NCBI GenBank assembly: GCA_017537925.1
Contig: JAFYJW010000061.1
Coordinates: forward strand, 76,660 to 117,316
Direction of reading: 5' to 3'
Length of the DNA stretch: 40,657 nucleotides
Source of the DNA: Synergistes sp.
Lineage (GTDB): Bacteria; Synergistota; Synergistia; Synergistales; Synergistaceae
Shown: positions 29,856 through 40,623 of the stretch, one piece after another
Position numbering within the stretch: position 1 is the first letter of the stretch
How the letters are laid out: every line of letters starts with the position of its first letter
Position numbers and translations under genes: made by a program
Notes under the pieces: generated by a model
Databases searched by the model: none
Told to the model about the DNA's origin: nothing
The model's input: the letters and a program-made list of their open reading frames with translations, nothing else

Positions 29856-30239
29856 TTACGGTATCAGCTCATAAAAGCTGCACGGCATTATATCCATTCT
29901 TGCAATCAATCCATTTTCAGAACGTTTTGCAGTCAGGCAGCCCGGCTCTATATCAGAACCTTGCTGGTCAAGCACCAAACAGGGTTTCCCGGAGCCTTTA
30001 ATATGCATTATCTTAGTCTTGATTACAACATTGTGTCTTTTAAATGTCTGGATCTTGCCTGCGATGTATTCAACGTACTCATTTGCGGAAGTCATTTCAG
30101 CTAACACAAAAAAGGAGCTATACCTAAAATCAGGTTCCATATGACATTGAATATCCTCTGAAGTGTATTCACTGTACATTTTCCCTATTTTGCGCAAAAA
30201 CTCCTCCTCGCTGATGGGAACAAAGTCCTGTCCTGGCAC
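29856..30239 (-). pseudogene. Probable out-of-frame 3' part of the upstream paralogue
   Basis: A 127-residue frame that begins with GTG 30239, without a clear ribosome site, and overlaps the end of the gene at 30185-31048. Upstream of the GTG the same frame continues readably (ADNSQTESAEVPGQDFVPIS) back to a TAA at about the point where the other frame loses sense. This pattern is what a one-base indel near the A-rich run before AATAATGG (about 30277) would give. If so, the original protein was about 400 residues long. The fragment itself has no known domain (a small alpha+beta unit with SSFFVLAEM and NVVIKTKIMHI strands). A separate small gene cannot be excluded. Confidence 0.5.
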
Positions 30240-31048
30240 TTCGGCGCTCTCTGTTTGAGAATTGTCGGCCTGCCATTATTTTCCTCTGTATCGAGCAATT
30301 CGTCCTGCGACAATTCTGACGGATCTCCATCCATGTAACGATACGATGACGACGCCACTAATTTTGGCGTATCACATATACTCGTATCATATATCAGTAT
30401 TTTCCAATATCCAGATCTTTCCGGCTCTTTTTTTCCCGGCACAATTTTATAATACGAGTAATCCTCGAAACGTTTAAAGATAGAAACGTCAAGGCCTTCG
30501 CGCATCGTTAAAGGCAGGTACTTTTCCTTACCCAGACGGCCGCCGTAGGCCATCAAAACAAGCCAGCAGTATACGGTACTTCTGGACATATACTCATCAA
30601 AGCCGGCAGCAAAATCAATCTCTTCGAAAATGGTTTCCTGTTCTACAACTAAATTCGGATCCCCGCCATTCTCCATGAAAAGCCGCATCAGTCTCGGCGC
30701 AAGTCCTTCCGGGTAATCTATGTACCAAATGATATTCATTGCACAGGAAGTATCACTGTCCGCAAGAACATTGGGATCATAGCCTTTGGAGAAGAGATAC
30801 TGCATTATCTTATAAATATTGCTGGTGACCGTTTTATCCTCCACAAGTGCTTTAAGATCATCCCCGTAAGTATATTGTTCACTAAAGGAGCACTCATCTA
30901 ACAGATCATATGCGATCTTGGACAGTTCTTCTTTCGTTATGGAATAATTGGCGAAGATCTTGTCCGCCGCGTCGTATCTCGGCGGAACGGCAAGTAATGC
31001 TTCTTCTATTTTTTGCGCCTGTTCCGAGAGTTTTGTTTCTTTATACAT
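30185..31048 (-). CDS. Unknown protein, tandem paralogue 2
   Basis: A 287-residue protein of a family I do not recognise. The N-terminal 230 residues parallel the tandem paralogue at 31148-31900 almost end to end. The pattern (SKGYDPNVLADSD, LFMENGGDPNLVVEQ, then a following helix) looks like degenerate ankyrin-type helical repeats. The conserved tail FKRFEDYSYYKIVPGKK and a beta segment (GYWKILIYDT) follow, then SSYRYMDGDPSELSQDEL. The last about 25 residues look out of frame and may be a frameshift artefact (see 29856-30239). Good RBS AAGGAGGT. Cytoplasmic, probably a protein-interaction or immunity-like protein; function unknown. Confidence 0.7.
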   Translation of the reverse strand: MYKETKLSEQAQKIEEALLAVPPRYDAADKIFANYSITKEELSKIAYDLLDECSFSEQYTYGDDLKALVEDKTVTSNIYKIMQYLFSKGYDPNVLADSDTSCAMNIIWYIDYPEGLAPRLMRLFMENGGDPNLVVEQETIFEEIDFAAGFDEYMSRSTVYCWLVLMAYGGRLGKEKYLPLTMREGLDVSIFKRFEDYSYYKIVPGKKEPERSGYWKILIYDTSICDTPKLVASSSYRYMDGDPSELSQDELLDTEENNGRPTILKQRAPKCQDRTLFPSARRSFCAK

Positions 31049-31147: not shown

Positions 31148-31900
31148 TTATTCCACTATACCTTCCCCGCGGCAAAGCCCGCGAAATGCCCAGTGTAAAT
31201 ACGATGACGTTGCCACTAATCGCGGCGGTTCTTCCACATCTGCCGTATAAAATATGAGCATTTCCCAACCGTGAAGTTCGCCTGGAACATCTTTTTCCGG
31301 TACTATCTTATAATAAGCATAATCCTCGAAACGCTTAAAGATACTGACGTCAAGGCCATCATGCATTGTAAGAGGCAGGTATTTCTCCCTGCTCACACGT
31401 CCTCCGTAGGCCATTAAAACAAGCCAGCAATATACGAAACTTCTGAACATATACTTATCGAAGGCAACAGCAAATTCGACCTCTTCAAACACGGGTATCC
31501 CTTCTACTACTAAATTCGGATCCCCGCCGTTTTCCATGAAAAGCCGCATCAGTTTCGGTGCAAGTCCTTCCGGGTAAACCAAAAAAGGAATAGTACCCAT
31601 TGCGCACCCATCATCCACTACCACATTGGGTTCATAGCCTTTGGAAAAGAGATATTGCATGACTCTATAAATATTGCTGGTGACTGTATTTTCATCTATA
31701 AGTGTTTTAATATCATCCCAGTAATCGGACTGCTCATTTAAACACTCGTGTAACAGGTCACATGCAATCTTAGCCAGTTCTTCTTTCGTTATGGAATAAT
31801 CGGCGAAGATCTTGTCCGCCGCGGCGTATCTCGGCGGAACGGCAAGCAATGCTTCTTCTATCTTTTGCGCCTGTTCGGAAAGTTTTGTTTCTTTATACAT
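31148..31900 (-). CDS. Unknown protein, tandem paralogue 1
   Basis: A 250-residue protein and the tandem duplicate of 30185-31048, sharing the same start (MYKETKLSEQAQKIEE) and most of the length. Ankyrin-like turns (KGYEPNVVVDDG, NGGDPNLVVEGI) stand at the same positions. The C-terminus diverges after VATSSYLHW and may be truncated. RBS GGGGGAT lies 5 nt before the ATG. It is downstream of rtcB on the same strand but separated by about 200 bases with two palindromes, so it probably has its own promoter. No function is proposed. The two copies differ at many codons, which points to an old duplication. Confidence 0.75.
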   Translation of the reverse strand: MYKETKLSEQAQKIEEALLAVPPRYAAADKIFADYSITKEELAKIACDLLHECLNEQSDYWDDIKTLIDENTVTSNIYRVMQYLFSKGYEPNVVVDDGCAMGTIPFLVYPEGLAPKLMRLFMENGGDPNLVVEGIPVFEEVEFAVAFDKYMFRSFVYCWLVLMAYGGRVSREKYLPLTMHDGLDVSIFKRFEDYAYYKIVPEKDVPGELHGWEMLIFYTADVEEPPRLVATSSYLHWAFRGLCRGEGIVE

Positions 31901-32107: not shown

Positions 32108-33346
32108 CTATTTCTTCTTTTTCTTCCACGGGAAGAAGTCTTCGGGCGCCTTGAAGTTATACACCGGCTTCATGACGTCGATGATGTCGACGGAGTCGCT
32201 GATGACGTCGATTATCGCGTCTATCGATTTGTACGCCATCGGTGCTTCGTCGATGGTGTCCCTGCTGACCGAGGTCGTGTATATGCCTTTCATCGCGGCT
32301 TTGTATTCCTCGATACTGATCTCCATTTTGGCTTTGCTCCTTGACATGATGCGCCCAGCGCCGTGCGGGGCTGAGAAATTCCACTCCGGGTTTCCTCTGC
32401 CCGCCGCGATAACGGAGCCGTCGCGCATGTTTATCGGGATAAGGACTTTTTCTCCTTCGTGCGCCGCGATGGCGCCCTTGCGCAGTATCATCTCGTCAGT
32501 GTCGATATAGTTGTGTATCGTGTGGAATGCGTCTGCCGCTTTCATTCCTGTCCTTTCGAGGATGATACCCGCCATTATCTCCCTGCTTCTTGCGGCAAAG
32601 CGCTGACAGATCTCGATATCGTGCAGGTAGTCGCCGAGCACAGGGCCGTAAAGCCAGCAAAGGTCTTCGGGCACGTCAGGATTCTTTGCCGCATAATCTT
32701 TCTTAAGCTTTGCAAGCGCGGTCTGAATCTCGGAATGCCTGCCTTCCGCCTTATATGTGCGCAGAATCTCTTCTCTTCTTTCAAAGTAGTCCGCGCGTCC
32801 TGCGTGAAGGTCGACTGCTAACTTCTGATAGAGCTCGGCGGTCTGCTTGCCGAGGTTTCTGCTGCCGGAGTGGATGACCAGAAAGAAGGTCCCGTCCGTG
32901 GACCTGTCTATCTCGATAAAGTGGTTACCCCCGCCAAGAGTGCCGAGCGAACGCTCAAGCCTTGTCGTGCCCGAAAGCGAGTCATAGCATTTCAGCGCGG
33001 TCAGGTCAAAGCTTTCGGCGCGTACCTTCCACGTTTCCATACCGGAAGGGATATAGTGCGCGGCTTCGTCTATCTTCTTAAAGTCCAGTTCGCCTGGCGC
33101 AAGCCTTACCGTGTACATGCCGCAGCCGATGTCGACGCCTACGATGTTGGGACATGCCTTGTCTTTTACCGTCATCGTAGTCCCGATAGTGCAGCCTGCG
33201 CCGCCGTGGACGTCGGGCATGATACGTATGCGGCTTCCTTCCGTCAGCTCATAGTCGCACATCCTGCGAATCTGTTCGATCGCGGCCTCTTCAACAACCT
33301 TTGCGTAGCAGACCGCCGTGTTGACTTTTCCTTTTATCTCAAACAA
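32108..33346 (-). CDS. rtcB: RtcB-family RNA ligase
   Basis: A 412-residue GTP- and Mn-dependent RNA ligase that joins 2',3'-cyclic phosphate or 3'-phosphate ends to 5'-OH ends, repairing RNA cut by toxins or nucleases. The metal and guanylate site is intact: VDIGCGM (Asp72, Cys75), LGGGNHFIE (Asn141, His142), HSGSRNLG (His159), HTIHNYI (His278) and the guanylylated His in APHGAGRIMSR (His328). Length equals canonical RtcB (about 410). Start: TTG 33346 with AAGGA 9 nt before it; no ATG lies in frame near. It follows the Ro60-like gene by 52 bases, so the two should be one transcript. In other bacteria RtcB is paired with RtcR, RtcA or Ro60/Y RNA; here the regulators are of WYL type. Confidence 0.95.
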   Translation of the reverse strand: MFEIKGKVNTAVCYAKVVEEAAIEQIRRMCDYELTEGSRIRIMPDVHGGAGCTIGTTMTVKDKACPNIVGVDIGCGMYTVRLAPGELDFKKIDEAAHYIPSGMETWKVRAESFDLTALKCYDSLSGTTRLERSLGTLGGGNHFIEIDRSTDGTFFLVIHSGSRNLGKQTAELYQKLAVDLHAGRADYFERREEILRTYKAEGRHSEIQTALAKLKKDYAAKNPDVPEDLCWLYGPVLGDYLHDIEICQRFAARSREIMAGIILERTGMKAADAFHTIHNYIDTDEMILRKGAIAAHEGEKVLIPINMRDGSVIAAGRGNPEWNFSAPHGAGRIMSRSKAKMEISIEEYKAAMKGIYTTSVSRDTIDEAPMAYKSIDAIIDVISDSVDIIDVMKPVYNFKAPEDFFPWKKKKK

Positions 33347-33398: not shown

Positions 33399-34898
33399 CT
33401 ATGCAGCTATTTTCGCATAGCGCTCGCTTTCGAGCACCTCTCGCATAAAAGTATACGGAGAGAGGACGCCTCCCGCGATCATCGAAAAGAGCCGCGGAGT
33501 CACACCGGAAACCAGAGCAACGCCCTGTTCGTTCATTGTAACAGGCTGCTGGCAATGTCGGCTGGCTACGTTCCAGAATACGACCTGCGGTATCTTATAT
33601 CCGAATGACTCGTATTTATTCCGGGCATTTATGAAATTGACCGCCGACGCGTTGCCGACGCAGGCGTCAAATTCCATATCTGAAATGATTATCAGCTTCG
33701 CCGGAAGTTCTTCCTGAGGCACGCTGTTTTTTACTGCGGCTCTGAGAATCAGATCAAACACCGCTTCCAGATTCGTGTTGGCGACCTGGCTGAAAGAGGC
33801 GGCATAGCAGAGCCTGTCGGCAAACGTTTTGCCTTTCAGCCCGATAAGCTGCGGACTGGCTGAAAACTCTATAAAATGATTCCTGAACGCGCCTTTATTA
33901 TGTTCCGCAAAATAAAGCCCGAGCGAGAGCGCCACGGCCGCCGGCAGAGGCTCTGAACCCCAGTACATGGAGGCGGAGGTATCTATTACAGCAAGAGCGT
34001 TCTCATCGCCGCCGAAATCGGGGATCGCAGCCCATGTGGCGTTCAGCACAGCTTTTTCCGAAGGTGTGATATTCTTCATATAGCTGCCCTTATGGTAAGC
34101 CCAATAATCGCTGAGATACGGCGCCACAAGCTCATAGGGAGCCACGTTATCCGCATGAAGCACCGCTTTCCCGGACGCCGCGGCATCGATAAACGCGCTG
34201 TAGCGCTCGCCGTCGTTGCGCGCAAAAGCCTTTTTGTATTTGAACAACGCCCTTGAAGGCTGCTTTTCATAATCAAAGGAGTAATCCTTTTTGCGGAGGT
34301 TATTCTCTATGATATGTATCTCCGCACGGAGTGCGGACAAAGCCTTTCTGTATTCCGCTTCGGACAATCCGAGCGCCTTCGCCGTCTTCTTTCCCAGGCT
34401 TTTTGTCCCGATGCTCGAGGCATTGACGGACGGCAGCCACTTCGCTAAAAGTGAGACGGGCTTACCGGCTTCCAAAGCCTTCATATCCTCTGAGAACTGA
34501 TTCCTGAGAACTTCGAACATTTCCTTTTCGCAGGTAGTTCCCGCAAGCGAGAGCAGGTCGTCAAAGCGGCCGTATTCGGCTACATATTCCAGGTTTTTCC
34601 TGACGGACGCGGGCTCATTTGCCGCAAGCCAGCCGAAGATCACGCGGAAGACCCGCCTTTCGCCGAGCCCGCCTCTTATATCTCTTGCGAAAAAGAGCAG
34701 CTTCATGGCTGAATCGGCATCTTCGGCATAGGCGCGGGCAAACCTCGCTCTTATCTCCGCATCGCTTTCACGGCGCAGCGCGCCTATCGAAGCAAAGAGG
34801 TCAAGGCAGTCTGATCCTGTGGACAGATATGCCGCCGCTCCGTTTTCCGTCAATGTCATATTCGTCATATTCGCTTCCTGTTTGATATATTCCAGCAT
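33399..34898 (-). CDS. Ro60-like DUF2828/vWA RNA-binding protein
   Basis: A 499-residue protein. Residues about 60-290 match DUF2828, a helical-repeat relative of the TROVE ring: LLFFARDIRGGLGERRVFRV (67-86), LAKWLPSVNASS (151-162) and SRALFKYKKAFARNDGERY (215-233). Residues about 300-480 form a von Willebrand A domain with an intact MIDAS: VIDTSASM (Asp306, Ser308, Ser310), Thr375 in VANTN and Asp407 in ISDMEFD. Ro60 has the same order of HEAT-like repeats and vWA, and binds Y RNA and misfolded RNA. The ATG at 34898 follows AAGGAG by 8 nt; GTG 34907 is within that site. It lies between the Y-RNA-like array and rtcB. The Ro60 role is inferred from architecture and context, not from TROVE sequence identity. 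Confidence 0.82.
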   Translation of the reverse strand: MLEYIKQEANMTNMTLTENGAAAYLSTGSDCLDLFASIGALRRESDAEIRARFARAYAEDADSAMKLLFFARDIRGGLGERRVFRVIFGWLAANEPASVRKNLEYVAEYGRFDDLLSLAGTTCEKEMFEVLRNQFSEDMKALEAGKPVSLLAKWLPSVNASSIGTKSLGKKTAKALGLSEAEYRKALSALRAEIHIIENNLRKKDYSFDYEKQPSRALFKYKKAFARNDGERYSAFIDAAASGKAVLHADNVAPYELVAPYLSDYWAYHKGSYMKNITPSEKAVLNATWAAIPDFGGDENALAVIDTSASMYWGSEPLPAAVALSLGLYFAEHNKGAFRNHFIEFSASPQLIGLKGKTFADRLCYAASFSQVANTNLEAVFDLILRAAVKNSVPQEELPAKLIIISDMEFDACVGNASAVNFINARNKYESFGYKIPQVVFWNVASRHCQQPVTMNEQGVALVSGVTPRLFSMIAGGVLSPYTFMREVLESERYAKIAA

Positions 34899-34931
34899 AA
34901 AGCTCACTCCTTCCGCTTATCATAAAATTAC

Positions 34932-34999
34932 AAGGCACCTTGCGGGATTTGAGCCCGCGAGCCGTGCTGTCAGCTTACCTTTGCTGCTGTGGGTGCCTT
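34932..34999 (-). ncRNA. Y-RNA-like RNA IV, a minimal tRNA mimic
   Basis: 68 nt on the minus strand. The 8-bp terminal stem AAGGCACC/GGTGCCTT closes the unit. A D-like arm CAGC-AAAGGTAA-GCTG (RNA positions 14-29) keeps a GG pair like tRNA G18-G19, and a T arm GCGGG-CTCAAAT-CCCGC (42-58) lies almost next to the acceptor strand. Positions 30-41 replace the anticodon arm. There is no encoded CCA. The ACAGCA motif sits at 10-15. Bacterial Y RNAs with tRNA-like modules (YrlA type) are known, so this is the best candidate RNA of the cluster. It lies 34 bases upstream of the Ro60-like start codon. Confidence 0.72.
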
Positions 35000-35032: not shown

Positions 35033-35104
35033 AAGGCGCATCCTTTTTACGGATAAACTCCGTTTGGTGGTGGTTGGCAATCCGAATTTTGCTGTATGCG
35101 CCTT
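35033..35104 (-). ncRNA. Y-RNA-like RNA III
   Basis: 72 nt on the minus strand, closed by a perfect 9-bp stem AAGGCGCAT/ATGCGCCTT, with ACAGCA directly after the 5' strand. An inner hairpin ACGGA-GTTTA-TCCGT and a long single-stranded CCAACCACCACCAAA part lie between. The 3' strand is preceded by a purine run. It begins only 5 bases after RNA II ends, so the two must be processed from one transcript or be a single structured RNA. Confidence 0.65.
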
Positions 35105-35109
35105 TTTAC

Positions 35110-35212
35110 AAGATGCGTATCCCGACAGGAATATGCCCCGGGCAATGACCCGTTACTGAAACTGGAAACTGGCCTGAATCCGGGTTAGATGCAGCTTTGC
35201 TGTCCGCATCTT
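35110..35212 (-). ncRNA. Y-RNA-like RNA II
   Basis: 103 nt on the minus strand, closed by a perfect 8-bp stem AAGATGCG/CGCATCTT, with ACAGCA at positions 10-15. Inside are ACCCG/CGGGT, a TGCC-CGG-GGCA hairpin and an ATTCC-TGTC-GGGAT hairpin next to the 3' strand. An alternative AGATGC/GCATCT pairing near the 5' end competes. No promoter-like AT-rich sequence precedes it. Confidence 0.6.
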
Positions 35213-35310: not shown

Positions 35311-35390
35311 AAGACGCCGCATTTCGGCCCTTGAATAGAACACATCTCCGAAGAGCAGTTCTTAGTAGAAGGGATTGCTGTATGCGTCTT
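35311..35390 (-). ncRNA. Y-RNA-like RNA I
   Basis: 80 nt on the minus strand, closed by a 7-bp stem AAGACGC/GCGTCTT that can extend with a small bulge. ACAGCA sits at 10-15. Further inside, CCCTT pairs with AAGGG, and a CTC-TTCG-GAG tetraloop hairpin is at the centre. It lies directly after the predicted promoter; the expected transcription start is close to its 5' end, so this unit could be a primary transcript. Confidence 0.65.
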
Positions 35391-35405: not shown

Positions 35406-35433
35406 ATTTTACAGAAGGAAAATAAATTATCAC
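35406..35433 (-). promoter_or_regulatory. Probable promoter of the Y-RNA-like array
   Basis: On the minus strand GTGATA (35428-35433) and TAAAAT (35406-35411) are 16 bp apart. The expected start, at about 35395-35399, is within 10 bases of the RNA I stem. The array is therefore likely transcribed separately from the WYL genes. Confidence 0.55.
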
Positions 35434-35435
35434 GG

Positions 35436-35466
35436 AAAAAAAGCTGCGAACTCTTATTGCCCGCAG
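35436..35466 (-). terminator. Terminator overlapping the end of the second WYL gene
   Basis: On the minus strand CTGCG (35462-35466) pairs with CGCAG (35444-35448), followed by a run of seven T. The stop codon of the WYL gene lies in the loop. Stem is short, so strength is uncertain. Confidence 0.5.
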
Positions 35467-36365
35467 TTTTTCTGCCTGAGAAGTCTTCCTTTGATCAGTT
35501 CCACGAAGTGACGCGGCGCCGTTGCCTTCACCATGGGTCCGAAGGAAAGAAAGCGTATCACTATCTCGGTCTCATCGTCCCTGTCGTACTTTACCGTTAC
35601 CTTATATCTGTCCTCGCCTGTTTTTTCCGCCTGCTTCTCGAAATGGGCGAAATGCATCAGGACCCGTTCAAGCGCATTCCTCTTATCGTACAGCTCAAAT
35701 TCAACGGTCCCGATTCTCGGCTGCTTTTTGCCGCCGGGCTTCTCTTCAAAGGGCTTAGTGTACGGCCTGCAGCTTACGATTCTGCCAAGGTTAACGACGC
35801 CGCCGTATCTGCAGCTCGAGCCTATCAGCCTGAACTTGTCGTCTTTTTCGGAATACTCCAGATACTCGGGCATCATGACCATATGAGTGACGCCGCCCCT
35901 GCGGTTCGTTATGTGGATGCTAAGAGGATATCTGTTCCGCACCGCGTCTAATATGAGCCGGAAGTTTTTGATGTATGCCTCGTCCTCATACGGGTCGCCG
36001 TCTGAGTATCTGTCAAAGACCGAGATATCATCAGGGCCGAAGAGAGGATCTGCGTCCGGCAGATCTATTTCTTCATCGGTAAAGAGCCTTACCCTCGGAT
36101 CGGCATATATCGCTTTGAGCCAGCGCTTCTCAAGCATCGTCAGCGGCATGGTCGGTGTATTCCTCACTGCTGCAGAGCCGTCTTTGCAAAGCAGCTGCCA
36201 GCGCTCCTCCGCTATCGCGGATTCGATATTCGGAAGGCTCTCGCCGAACGCGTTCTTTTCGATTATCCCGCGCAGCTCGCCGCTGCCGAGCGGGCGGGCC
36301 GCCGCGGCTTTCAGTATCCCGGCCACCGCGTTGTAATAGGCGCTGTAGAGTTCGCTGAATATCAC
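35454..36365 (-). CDS. WYL-domain regulator 2
   Basis: A 303-residue protein with a WYL domain at about 145-200: RYPLSIHITNRRGG, then MVMMPEYLEYSEKDDKFRLI and GSSCRYGGVVNLGRIVSCRPY. The Arg and hydrophobic positions of the ligand-binding SH3-like fold are kept. The N-terminal 90 residues are helical without a clear HTH. The C-terminal 80 residues (TVEFELYDKRNALERVLMHF, then FLSFGPMVKATAP) are of WCX type. It starts with GTG 36365, which overlaps the stop of the first WYL gene by 4 bases (GTGA), so both are co-translated and probably act as a heteromeric regulator. WYL proteins sense nucleic acid or nucleotide ligands and control defence and RNA-repair loci. This copy ends at the array terminator. 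Confidence 0.85.
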   Translation of the reverse strand: MIFSELYSAYYNAVAGILKAAAARPLGSGELRGIIEKNAFGESLPNIESAIAEERWQLLCKDGSAAVRNTPTMPLTMLEKRWLKAIYADPRVRLFTDEEIDLPDADPLFGPDDISVFDRYSDGDPYEDEAYIKNFRLILDAVRNRYPLSIHITNRRGGVTHMVMMPEYLEYSEKDDKFRLIGSSCRYGGVVNLGRIVSCRPYTKPFEEKPGGKKQPRIGTVEFELYDKRNALERVLMHFAHFEKQAEKTGEDRYKVTVKYDRDDETEIVIRFLSFGPMVKATAPRHFVELIKGRLLRQKNCGQ

Positions 36366-37612
36366 CGGGAGTCACCGCCTTCCAGCCCGTACATCGCATA
36401 CATTTCCTTTATGTCGTCCCAAAACTGGGTCTCAAGCTCTTTGTTTGAAAAGCTGATATCCGTTATGCGGCAGATGAAAGTCCGAATCCAGGGGACCAGT
36501 TCGCCCGCGTCAAATACGTCCGCGGAAAACCTGCTGCTGTGTTCGTCAAGCTTTTCCACGCTGCCGCAGCGCTTTTCACGCTCAAGGCGCTGATGTATAT
36601 ACGTTTCGTCTGCTTTATATGTCACCGTGAATTCGACATGCTCGATGCGCTCTCCGGACGCGCTCTGCGTGCTGACTCCCCACAGATTGGGCAGCATCCC
36701 GTCAAGCTTTTTGCGGAACTCGTCAAATCTTCCGCAGACCTCCCCGGGCTCAACGGAGATGATATTGTCGGTCCTGAAAGAGATCATGCGCTTAAAGCGC
36801 GGAACGTACGCCATCAGGTACTGCCTGCCCCCCTGCACACTTACCATTATGCGCAGCGGTATCACATATTTTTGCGAGATCCTGCGGTTATGCCTGGTGA
36901 CTGTCTCAATCGCCGCGTATCTTTTTTCAGACATCGCATAAAGAAGAGAGCAGACGATATCGCTGTCCATAGCCGCCGTGATGTAGTGATGCTTGAACGC
37001 AACGTGGCTTTCGTGCGGCTCTATTTTGTCCAGCAGATAGGAGCCGATAACGCCGCATGGAGAAACTTCCGAAAAGAAGTCAAGCATATCGGCGTCTTCT
37101 GCAGTCACAGACTCTGATTCAGCCCGCCGGTAGAACATGGTTTTCCCGCGCTTTTCGGAAACGATGATGCCCTCGGCAATGTATTCGTTCAGCTTCTTGC
37201 GCACAGTCGATGCGTCGAACATTCTGGGCTCGCTGAAGGAAGTAAGATAACCGTCTATCTTCTCAGCTATCTCGTTTAACGAAAGCACAGTATCCGGCGA
37301 GTCCAATATGTCAAAGAGTATGAAGTGCAGAGTGATGTCGCCGTCGGTAAAGCTTTTTGTCTTCCATGCCCTGTACAGGGGATTGTGGCGTGAAAGCCGG
37401 CTGTCTATCGAGATAAAAATGTTCTTTCCGTCGGCTGTCCGGCGGAAGCGCATATGGTCCCCCAGCCAGCTTTCAAGACGGCGGCGTTCGTCATCATATG
37501 AGCGGGCGCTTTTCTTTGTGTATTCCTCCCGGCTCTTGAAGCCGTAGACATAGAACTCCCGCATATAGTCTCGAATGCGGCTGAAGTTCTTTATCAGCTC
37601 GCTGTATGCCAT
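36362..37612 (-). CDS. WYL-domain transcriptional regulator 1
   Basis: A 416-residue protein. The region at about 90-165 is a winged HTH-like part (SLNEIAEKIDGYLTSFSEPR, then DASTVRKKLNEYIAEGIIVS), and the WYL domain is at about 230-295 (KRYAAIETVTRHNRRISQKY, YVIPLRIMVSVQGGRQYLMA, then FRTDNIISVEPGE). A WCX-type C-terminal extension with VEFTVTYKADETYIH follows. This is the complete DNA-binding partner of the WYL-only downstream gene. It starts 89 bases after the helicase stop codon. It probably represses or activates the Ro60-RtcB unit in response to RNA damage; the ligand is unknown. Confidence 0.87.
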   Translation of the reverse strand: MAYSELIKNFSRIRDYMREFYVYGFKSREEYTKKSARSYDDERRRLESWLGDHMRFRRTADGKNIFISIDSRLSRHNPLYRAWKTKSFTDGDITLHFILFDILDSPDTVLSLNEIAEKIDGYLTSFSEPRMFDASTVRKKLNEYIAEGIIVSEKRGKTMFYRRAESESVTAEDADMLDFFSEVSPCGVIGSYLLDKIEPHESHVAFKHHYITAAMDSDIVCSLLYAMSEKRYAAIETVTRHNRRISQKYVIPLRIMVSVQGGRQYLMAYVPRFKRMISFRTDNIISVEPGEVCGRFDEFRKKLDGMLPNLWGVSTQSASGERIEHVEFTVTYKADETYIHQRLEREKRCGSVEKLDEHSSRFSADVFDAGELVPWIRTFICRITDISFSNKELETQFWDDIKEMYAMYGLEGGDSR

Positions 37613-37701: not shown

Positions 37702-40623
37702 TCAGCCGACGGCCAGCTTGTTCGTCTTCTTCAAATACTTCGCCGGTATCGGGGCGTCCAGTTTCCAGGTGATGTTCATCGGTCTTTCGCCCTCGTGCTT
37801 CACATAGTTTGCCGTGCCGAGATAGGTGTAGGCTTCGGCGATGCCGGTGATTCTGTCATTCTTGAATTCACGGACAAAGAGCAGCACGCGGCTGCCGCGC
37901 TCTCTGTGATGTATGTAACGCTGTCCCGTTTTTGATCCTTCCGCCGTCGTGCTCTGGCTCTGCCAATGGAAAAGCCATTCGTTGATGGAGTAATCGTTGT
38001 ACATCGTTGTCGGCGAATAATCTTTATCCGCTTTATTCAGCGTCACAAAGAATACGTCTAATTTCTGATCCGGCAGCCACTTCACTCCCTCCCTCACCGT
38101 TGCAGGTTCCATAAAGTCCAGCGCCACAAGCAGCTGGTCGCGAGTGTATGTGGAATGCAGATCCAGCGGACAATCGAAACCGACGTCGACCGGAGAGTCG
38201 ATGAAGTCTATGCGGTCGTACTGATAATTCAGAAGGGCTGTAAGCTCGCCTAAAAGCACCGGGCTGTCCGCAAGCTCATGGAGGTTTCCCAAAACCTCAT
38301 CGCTTTTCCAGTCTTTGGCAGCCTTGCCCCAGAGAGTGATATAGAACATCTGCAGCATGCGTTTTTCAAGCGGCGAAAGCTTGTCAAAGTCCACATCATT
38401 CAAACGCGGCAGCAGCTTCAGCAGGAAGGATATCCACCTGCGGGAATCGATAACCGCAAGCCTCGCCAGCGCCTTTTCCACGGTTTTCTCCAAAGGTTCG
38501 GAGAAGTCTTCTGTCACATCCGCCCTTGCGGAAAGGCGCGAAAACGTCGAAAACTTATAAATGCTCCGCGGGTCAAGGTGGTAATAGTCAAGGAAATTGG
38601 AGAGGCTTAATTTCTGTCCCGTGTCTTCCTCAAAAGAAGCGATCCTTGACACCAGACCCGCGCTGTTTCCGTAGGAGGCCCGGATATTATCCAGAATATA
38701 TTTAGCGGCTTTCTTCTCCAGCTGTATGTAGCAGCCTTTCGGCACGGAGACGAAGCCCTCTTTTATCTCCCTTGATACGCTGCGGGATGTATTTGACAAA
38801 AGGGCTGCGAATTTATCCTCAAAGTTATATTTCTTGTTTGCCTGGCCGATGAAGTCAAGAACCGTCAGGCATTCTTTATCCTCCGCAAGACGAAGACCGC
38901 GGCCGAGCTGCTGCAGGAAAACCGTAAGCGATTCTGTGGGCCTGAGGAAGAGCACTGTGTTGACTTCCGGGATATCCACGCCCTCGTTATAAATATCAAC
39001 GACAAAAATAAACCGCACCCGGCCTGAGACCAGGCTCTCTTTTGCGCTGCGGCGCTCTTCATCGGCAGATCTGCCGGTCAGGAACATGGACGGGACGCCG
39101 TGCCCGTTGAAATAGCGGCACATAAATTCGGCATGGTCCACGGAAACACAGAAGCCGAGACCTTTGACTTTATCTATGTCCGTCACGTATCTCAGCAGCG
39201 ACGCAACTACCATATCGGCGCGGCGCTCCGCTACCCTGCCGCTGAACGAATAGATATTGGACAATTCTGTCCTGTCATAGCCGCCGGCCGCCCATTTCAG
39301 TTTGTCTAAGTCCACAGTGTCGGTCACTCCGAAATACTGGAACGGACAGAGCAGCTTGCGGTCAATGGCTTCCGGAAGACGAATCTCAGCGGCAATGCGA
39401 TCGTTGAAATACCCAAGAATGCTTTTGCCGTCCATGCGCTCCGGCGTGGCGGTCAGGCCAAGCAGAATCTTCGGCCGGTAGTATTCCAAAAGCTTCTGAT
39501 AGGTCGGGGCGGCCGCGTGGTGGAACTCGTCCACGATGATATAGTCATAGAAATCGGGCGTCGTTTTTTCTGTGAAGTCCTGCGAGTTAAAGGTCTGGAT
39601 GGAGATAAACAGATGGTCGATGCCGTCCGGCCGGTAACTGCCGACAAACATTTCGCCAAAATTGGCGTCCTTCAGCACCGCACGGAAGGTATACATGCTC
39701 TGTTTCAGAATCTCCTCACGATGGGCAACGAAAAGCAGACGGCAGGCCTTCCCTGCGTTCCGCTTTCGGAAGTGCTTATAGTCAAGCGCGGAGATCACCG
39801 TTTTGCCGGTGCCTGTGGCGGCCACGACAAGGTTTCTGAAATAGCCGCGAATCGTGCGCTCGGCTTCCAGCCTGTCCAGTATCTCCTGCTGATAGGAGTA
39901 GGGCTGTATATCCATCGTATAGAGTTCGGCGTTATTGCTCTCATAGTACTTTTCCGCCTGCAGCGCCCGAGCCAGGCGTTCCCGCTGCCCCTCGTCGTAA
40001 TATTCAAACTCCCTGTCGTTCCAGTAATACTCAAAGGTCGCAGCTATTTTGCCGATGGTCTCGGGCAGGTCTTTCATAGTTATCTTCGTGTTCCATTCCA
40101 GACCGCTGGTAAGCGCCGCGTTGGATATATTGGACGACCCCACATAAGCCGTGGTAAAGCCGGTATCGCGGTAAAAGATATAAGCCTTTGCATGAAGGCG
40201 CGTGATCTTCGTGTTGTAGCTGACCTTTATCTGCGTATTGGGGAGCTTTCGCAGCTCTTCTATAGCCTTCACGTCGGTGGCGCCCATATATGAAGTCGTG
40301 ATTATCCGGAGCCTGCCGCCCTTTTGCGTAAAGTCCGCCAGTTCTTCGATGATAAGGCGCAGCCCGCTCCATTTGATAAAGGAGACAAGCATATCGATGC
40401 GGTCGCAGGAAACGATCTCTTTCTTGAGTTCTGTATACATCTGCGGCTCATGAACCGCGCCGGTAAAGAGGCTCGACTGTGCGATCGAGCTCTCCGGCCG
40501 GACGACAGAGGCTTTCTCGTCGACCGCCCATATGCTGTTTGTCCGGTCGAAAAGCGCTAAAAGCTGTTCCGCGCGTTCCGCGACCGAGAGTGAATCGTAA
40601 CTTTCTTCCCTGGTTTCGGCCAT
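37702..40623 (-). CDS. PLD-nuclease / SF2 helicase / DUF3427 protein
   Basis: A 973-residue multidomain protein. Residues about 55-190 are a phospholipase D-type nuclease domain with one HxK site (RLHAKAYIF, His144, Lys146, and GSSNIS after it). Residues about 240-650 are an SF2 helicase: Walker A AATGTGKT (268-275), DEFHH (365-369), GLTATPER, and QQLGRGLRL as motif VI. The last 300 residues are DUF3427, with [11 protein letters not shown] and [12 protein letters not shown]. This order is a recognised DNA- or RNA-processing family found near defence and restriction genes. The ATG at 40623 lacks a strong ribosome site and the upstream part is cut by the window edge. It may be the first gene of the WYL unit, but that is not shown. 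Confidence 0.9.

Follow-up and report, generated by a model that had tools for sequence, protein, structure and literature searches.

A predicted docking stem and tRNA elbow in RNA IV, a unit of a Y-RNA-like array beside a Ro60-like DUF2828 gene in Synergistes

Background

The closest described relatives of the system studied here are the YrlA RNAs of the Salmonella rsr-yrlBA-rtcBA operons, whose transfer RNA (tRNA)-like part is PDB entry 6CU1 (as cited in PMC8394870). In Salmonella this operon, which resembles the one studied here, responds to fragments of tRNA, and YrlA has been proposed to compete with the nuclease through its tRNA-like part (PMC7790460). In the Rsr-Y RNA-PNPase particle (RYPER) of Deinococcus radiodurans, the Y RNA is docked on the Ro60-type ring and serves as a tether for a second component (PMC8394870, PMC8058203), namely PNPase (PMC8394870). 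Here we analyze RNA IV, a 68-base unit at positions 34932-34999, minus strand, of a 40,657-nucleotide stretch of Synergistes sp. DNA (contig JAFYJW010000061.1; the whole stretch is referred to as the window). RNA IV is the last, gene-proximal member of an array of four units in a locus with the order WYL/WYL, RNA array, DUF2828, RtcB. An earlier note, made from the letters of the window, had read it as a minimal tRNA mimic without an anticodon arm. We consider it probable that RNA IV belongs to a Y-RNA-like array and combines a docking module with a tRNA elbow from which the anticodon arm was lost, and that it serves as a tether or competitor beside a Ro60-like protein in the repair of tRNA damage.

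RNA IV and its related units resemble YrlA in the end stem formed from both RNA ends, which is the terminal stem of Y RNAs; in a D/T elbow module, present as a GG and a T arm in RNA IV and relatives (the D stem is unconserved in short units); and in the adjacency of RtcB and of a gene that is Ro60-type by predicted fold (PMC8394870, PMC7790460). They differ in the partner protein, which here is DUF2828/DUF7788 with no TROVE match, in a distinct ACAGCA box, in arrays of up to 9 units, in long members that carry an anticodon arm and, for RNA IV, in a T arm that adjoins the end stem and in the lack of an Rfam match. Binding to the Ro60-type protein and modification by TruB and DusA are further hallmarks of YrlA-type RNAs. 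Since the docking stem and ACAGCA are common to all units, RNA IV is modular, like YrlA, and the idea in the earlier note that the whole RNA is the mimic is not right. The difference from RYPER is that no PNPase was identified among the neighboring proteins examined here. Compared with tRNA (RF00005), the long units have counterparts of G18 G19, T54, C56, A58 and G53-C61, with an acceptor of about 3 base pairs (bp) and the docking stem instead; against the tRNA cloverleaf, with its 7-bp acceptor, anticodon arm and CCA, RNA IV has neither the anticodon arm nor the CCA. Elbow mimicry without a decoding anticodon arm is shared by RNA IV with transfer-messenger RNA (tmRNA) and other tRNA-like RNAs, although, unlike tmRNA, it has neither a reading frame nor CCA.

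Results and discussion

RNA IV is recognized by a model built from other genomes

A covariance model (R1) was built from 29 long units of other genomes, none of them from the window. On the window, RNA IV was its top match, with the exact ends 34932-34999 (41.1 bits, E=2e-10), above the real tRNAs of the window, and the anticodon arm was deleted in the alignment. This blind match bears out the reading of RNA IV as a tRNA mimic without an anticodon arm. ARAGORN, run on the window, did not call RNA IV a tRNA and found no tmRNA either. An Rfam scan of the window, at the gathering cut-off and also at E<=5, gave nothing relevant and no Y RNA match; the opposite strand has a Plastid-ycf2 match (20.7 bits), which is the mirrored unit.

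The full minus-strand sequence of RNA IV is AAGGCACCCACAGCAGCAAAGGTAAGCTGACAGCACGGCTCGCGGGCTCAAATCCCGCAAGGTGCCTT, which reads from 34999 to 34932 as AAGGCACC CACAG CAGC AAAGGTAA GCTG ACAGCACGGCTC GCGGG CTCAAAT CCCGC AA GGTGCCTT. The 8-bp end stem, the 7-nucleotide (nt) T loop CTCAAAT and the 12-nt linker are all present as first described, and CCA is absent from the sequence. The minimum free energy is -25.6 kcal/mol (z = -2.46 against shuffles, with 6 of 200 shuffles equal or better), so that by folding energy alone RNA IV is moderately beyond chance. It is the family comparison, not the fold energy, that places it beyond chance. Chance hairpins in an intergenic leader could accommodate a z-score of only -2.46, but this explanation is refuted by the blind model match together with the family-wide statistics, and its probability is close to nil. 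The end stem and T stem have pair probabilities near 1 (0.55 for the outermost end-stem pair), and the D-like stem (positions 14-17 with 26-29) about 0.7. A second ACAGCA, possibly there by chance, lies inside the 12-nt linker (window 34965-34970, minus strand).

The D-like arm stood in part. Its GG is a family feature: a GG at the expected place occurs in 17 of the 19 units of short build (T arm beside the end stem, as in RNA IV), which are found in the order of the window, Synergistales, and elsewhere, versus 70 of 243 units without a T arm (P=2e-7), with 7.0 expected on shuffling. The stem as drawn is not; across the family the GCTG partner of CAGC is not enriched (15 of 310 units versus 16.8 expected), and the CAGC/GCTG stem was rejected as a family feature. 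In RNA IV its 5' strand overlaps the 3' end of the ACAGCA box by two bases. Because this stem is not conserved and may compete with the box, we place the predicted mimicry in the GG plus the T arm, not in the drawn D stem. The earlier note had named loss of the GG and T-loop bases in relatives as evidence that would refute its reading; among the related units, both are kept.

A family of units with a common putative docking module

Relatives were collected by protein search, which found the DUF2828 gene in at least 482 loci of a genome collection; the best 80, nearly all from Clostridia, were kept. As the loci were gathered through searches with one protein family, relatedness inflates some of the counts given here. 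A motif-and-helix search, which required the helix and the CAGC letters, found 310 units in 107 of 110 loci. The units follow a plan of AARRYRC, two bases, ACAGCA, a variable interior and a complementary end, with an end stem of 7-10 bp. A search free of the helix, using the 5' strand and box only, gave 253 hits versus 0.2 expected, and 243 of these had their own exact 7-nt complement downstream, compared with 24.7 for the complement of another unit. In 107 of 109 loci, units lie upstream of the DUF2828 gene and on its strand, about 300 in all; the median distance from the gene to the nearest unit is 33 nt.

Within Synergistales, where 39 of 183 genomes have the DUF2828 gene, the unit pattern was found in 29 of these 39 versus 3 of the 144 without it. 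RtcB lies at most 3 kb away in 58 of the 80 genome loci, and WYL-like genes are present in 64-65 of them. Elsewhere in the genome of the window, seven of eight other hits to the 5' motif have no partner strand; one (L113) has a partner, which may be due to chance. Rfam holds no such family, and 16 related loci gave no Y RNA match at gathering. These relatives, numbering in the hundreds, were previously unlisted. The 8-bp stem of RNA IV was thus correctly seen but is not an acceptor: it corresponds to the end stem of every unit in the family, tRNA-like or not, and together with ACAGCA would be the docking module.

The elbow, the anticodon arm and the decoy alternative

T-arm hairpins with canonical loops were found in 56 units versus 0.6 in shuffles. 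About 40 units are long; in most of them the D, anticodon and T arms are accompanied by a 3-bp remnant of the acceptor. In an alignment of 29 long units as a cloverleaf, the 3-bp acceptor is connected to the end stem through the ACAGCA loop, 93.4% of cells are paired and 18 of the 25 pairs vary on both sides. None of 500 shuffles comes up to these figures, and slid controls give 38-48%. Compensatory changes are seen in each of the five helices. The Rfam tRNA model (RF00005) scores several long units above threshold, often over model positions 5-66 of 71 only.

The latter result, and the resemblance of RNA IV to a truncated tRNA, could be explained by a decayed, functionless tRNA gene inserted upstream of the operon. 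The compensatory changes argue against decay, as do the retention of the end stem, ACAGCA, GG and T loop while the remainder varies, the fixed position before the DUF2828 gene and the scatter of short forms over the tree, and we regard this origin as very improbable.

Identity in the long units is 0.97 for the box, 0.83 for the T loop, 0.73 for the D loop and 0.33 for the anticodon loop. With the anticodon loop conserved least of all, the likely selected feature is the elbow and not decoding. The anticodon loop also varies among long units that are alike elsewhere (identity 0.37), as would be expected if the units were decoys or sensors for tRNA-cleaving enzymes, with the Ro60-like protein holding varied anticodon arms, RtcB resealing them and RNA IV a member without the cut site. 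Hairpins of 5 bp with a 7-nt loop are present in 119 units that lack a T arm versus 36 expected, their loops match Lys, Asn, Phe, Ser, Arg, Leu, Met and others, U33 is present in about half of the anticodon-like hairpins and position 37 mostly follows tRNA rules. Viral copies sit among phage tRNA clusters, and phage tRNAs are known to counter tRNA-cutting defenses (PMC10264068, PMC11555353). On the other side, many long units have loops of 3, 5, 6 or 8 nt or lack U33, and in Salmonella the RecA-dependent tRNA nuclease is reported to leave YrlA uncut (PMC7790460). The anticodon arm is also absent from RNA IV itself, which therefore cannot copy the usual tRNA cut site; this bears equally on the suggestion of the earlier note that the mimic may let the Ro60-like protein or RtcB recognize cut tRNAs. 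We consider the decoy or sensor reading unlikely, if the more serious of the alternatives.

Units without a T arm and with an apparent anticodon arm of Lys (CTTTTAA), Asn (CTGTTAA), Arg (CTTCTAA) or others begin at L074:2536, L066:2595, L094:2369, L105:2067, L087:1079, L096:2591 and elsewhere. In units of Synergistales a nearly full tRNA with an anticodon arm is enclosed (L002:1794-1889, L003:2996-3210, L004:2985-3127).

A predicted Ro60-like fold for the DUF2828 protein

The earlier note had called the neighboring gene Ro60-like. This holds for the fold and not for the sequence. An AlphaFold (AF2) model of the window DUF2828 protein has a predicted local distance difference test (pLDDT) score of 79.5, and all ten matches at E<=0.001 in a Foldseek comparison with the PDB are Ro60/TROVE structures (E 1.6e-7 to 7.4e-6); the predicted fold contains the HEAT-like ring and vWA domain of Ro60. 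Sequence searches with Pfam, and of the PDB with a DUF2828 profile, gave no TROVE/Ro60 match, and the neighbor would thus be Ro60-like at fold level only. No paper connecting DUF2828 with Y RNAs was found in the literature searched, though a description elsewhere is possible.

A proposed role for RNA IV

By analogy with Ro60, the end stem and ACAGCA would dock on the outside of the DUF2828 ring, leaving the elbow of RNA IV exposed. The elbow would then engage enzymes that read tRNA by its elbow and acceptor helix, and would either tether such an enzyme to the ring or act as a competitor of damaged tRNA; resealing by RtcB would belong to the same pathway. Since the T arm is 2 nt from the end stem, the two could stack into a 13-bp acceptor/T-like helix.

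That helix, near the 12 bp of tRNA, would also suit a processing signal, in which RNase P and RNase Z recognize the elbow and stacked helix and cut the Y-like RNAs out of the DUF2828 mRNA, as in tRNA punctuation. The close spacing of the units (median 13 nt) and the greater frequency of T arms among gene-proximal units (32 of 107 versus 28 of 194, P=0.002) fit this explanation. However, a canonical T arm is missing from about 70% of gene-proximal units, and 28 units with a T arm occupy other places in the array. In the long units the ACAGCA loop breaks the acceptor helix and would be expected to impede RNase P, and no CCA follows. We therefore hold processing to be an improbable function, a little more so than the decoy role.

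Several points weigh against the main reading of RNA IV as a whole. Binding of the end stem and ACAGCA by DUF2828 is proposed from co-occurrence and the Ro60 analogy, and the transcription, binding and activity of the units are predictions from sequence. The possible competition between the box and the D stem in RNA IV counts here too. The T loop of RNA IV has C instead of T at position 1, as in no other T arm found; this base would weaken both the 54-58 contact and recognition of the RNA by enzymes that modify tRNA. The array could be found in neither of the two other genomes of the genus, and the RNA IV sequence has no close orthologue. Finally, reduction of RNA IV is deduced mainly from one sister locus, L031.

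A probable origin by reduction

In the DUF2828 protein tree the window is sister to L031 (support 100/91), the last unit of which is of the long form, and short forms are scattered over the tree. Because D, anticodon and T arms are all present in this sister locus and in many T-arm units close to the gene, the simplest reading is that RNA IV arose from such a longer unit, most likely by loss of the anticodon arm. RNA IV is therefore better called reduced than minimal, apparently a trimmed member of a widespread family of tRNA-imitating RNAs.

The window DUF2828 protein (33399-34907) has 74% identity to that of L031, a Bacillota metagenome-assembled genome, about 45-61% to full-length copies from its own order and 70% to a partial copy from the same genus. 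The higher identity to L031 than to the full-length copies of its own order suggests horizontal transfer of the gene.

Viral copies and other unit classes

IMG/VR contigs contain 394 relatives of the DUF2828 protein, about 40% identical, and family units are present there too. In 21 of 80 viral loci, 29 tRNA-like genes carry a hairpin of 6-11 bp, two bases and ACAGCA between the D and T arms, an insertion with 0 cases in the bacterial loci. In the viral examples the acceptor, D and T arms are intact and the insertion is on the 5' side of the anticodon stem; ARAGORN misses these tRNAs. Examples are L134:2236-2352, L133:2209-2722, L156:2633-2880, L163:2559-2796 and L166:2629-2830, among others. 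The insertion has the form of the bacterial docking element circularly permuted, and some examples keep an intact anticodon loop (Asn, Lys, Thr).

Two further arrangements were seen. A permuted tRNA module (T arm, acceptor-like segment, D arm TAGCTCAGAGG..AGAGC) is found within the usual end stem and box at L008:1177-1282, L009:3027-3136, L010:1309-1408 and L015:1009-1113 and 1306-1414. A second recurrent class has a D-like arm TTAGCTC..GAGC, an anticodon-like arm and a third arm with CGGTGAAAGTCCG instead of the usual T arm (L036:2553-2666, L045:2512-2622, L079:2619-2723, L105:2622-2725 and similar AAGATGC/AAGACGC units).

The locus around RNA IV

Features of the locus are listed in Table 1. 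All four units of the window start with AAG(G/A)(C/T)RC NN ACAGCA and finish with the complement. For the DUF2828 gene, a start at the ATG at 34898 is suggested by a conserved MLExLKxEAN and an AAGGAG upstream; the open reading frame is readable from the GTG at 34907. Downstream of RtcB, two proteins with 70% mutual identity are encoded at 30185-31048 and 31148-31900 (minus strand); they have no Pfam or NCBIfam match, and just 2 of the 110 related loci gave matches to them. A large PLD-nuclease/ResIII helicase/DUF3427 protein of defense-like architecture is encoded at 37702-40623 (minus strand), upstream of the WYL-like genes.

Table 1. Features of RNA IV and its surroundings in the window
Feature	Position	Strand	Basis
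RNA IV, reduced tRNA-mimic unit (predicted)	34932-34999	-	Blind covariance model match, sequence, fold
End (docking) stem, 8 bp, 5' strand AAGGCACC	34992-34999	-	Partner 34932-34939; family consensus AARRYRC
End stem, 3' strand GGTGCCTT	34932-34939	-	Pairs with 34992-34999
ACAGCA box	34985-34990	-	Column counts over 310 units; search itself required CAGCA
GG in D-like loop, counterpart of tRNA G18 G19	34978-34979	-	Comparison with related units
D-like hairpin CAGC / AAAGGTAA / GCTG	34971-34986	-	Stem not conserved in family
Linker of 12 nt, ACAGCACGGCTC, replacing anticodon arm	34959-34970	-	Covariance model alignment, arm deleted
T arm GCGGG CTCAAAT CCCGC	34942-34958	-	Pair probability near 1; conserved in relatives
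RNA III, family unit	35033-35104	-	Covariance model R1, 24.0 bits
RNA II, family unit	35110-35212	-	Covariance model R1, 19.8 bits
RNA I, family unit	35311-35390	-	Covariance model R1, 21.5 bits
DUF2828/DUF7788 protein gene, predicted Ro60-like fold	33399-34898	-	Pfam; AF2 and Foldseek
RtcB-family RNA ligase gene	32108-33346	-	Pfam PF01139, 2e-55
WYL/WCX-like regulator gene (weak Pfam match)	35454-36365	-	WCX E=0.066; conserved near array in relatives
WYL-like regulator gene (weak Pfam match)	36362-37612	-	WYL E=0.022; conserved in relatives
Possible array promoter GTGATA-16-TAAAAT	35406-35433	-	Consensus scan only
Terminator-like hairpin, just upstream of possible array promoter	35444-35466	-	Scan

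Conclusions

Taken more broadly, a large unrecognized family may attach parts of tRNA (an elbow, an elbow plus anticodon arm, a permuted elbow or, in phages, a near-complete tRNA) to DUF2828, and bacteria and phages may use the resulting particles as decoys or sensors in tRNA-cleavage conflicts, with resealing by RtcB; we put this forward tentatively, as a possibility that falls short of probable. The tRNA mimicry of Y RNAs would extend to a second Ro60-like family, DUF2828, which has no detectable sequence similarity to the first and is found in Clostridia and phages. For DUF2828, a domain of unknown function, the comparison points to a likely partner RNA and to a candidate element for its binding. 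The natural variants, with their stepwise reduction of the tRNA, make it testable which part of tRNA a Ro60-type particle must imitate, and for whom.
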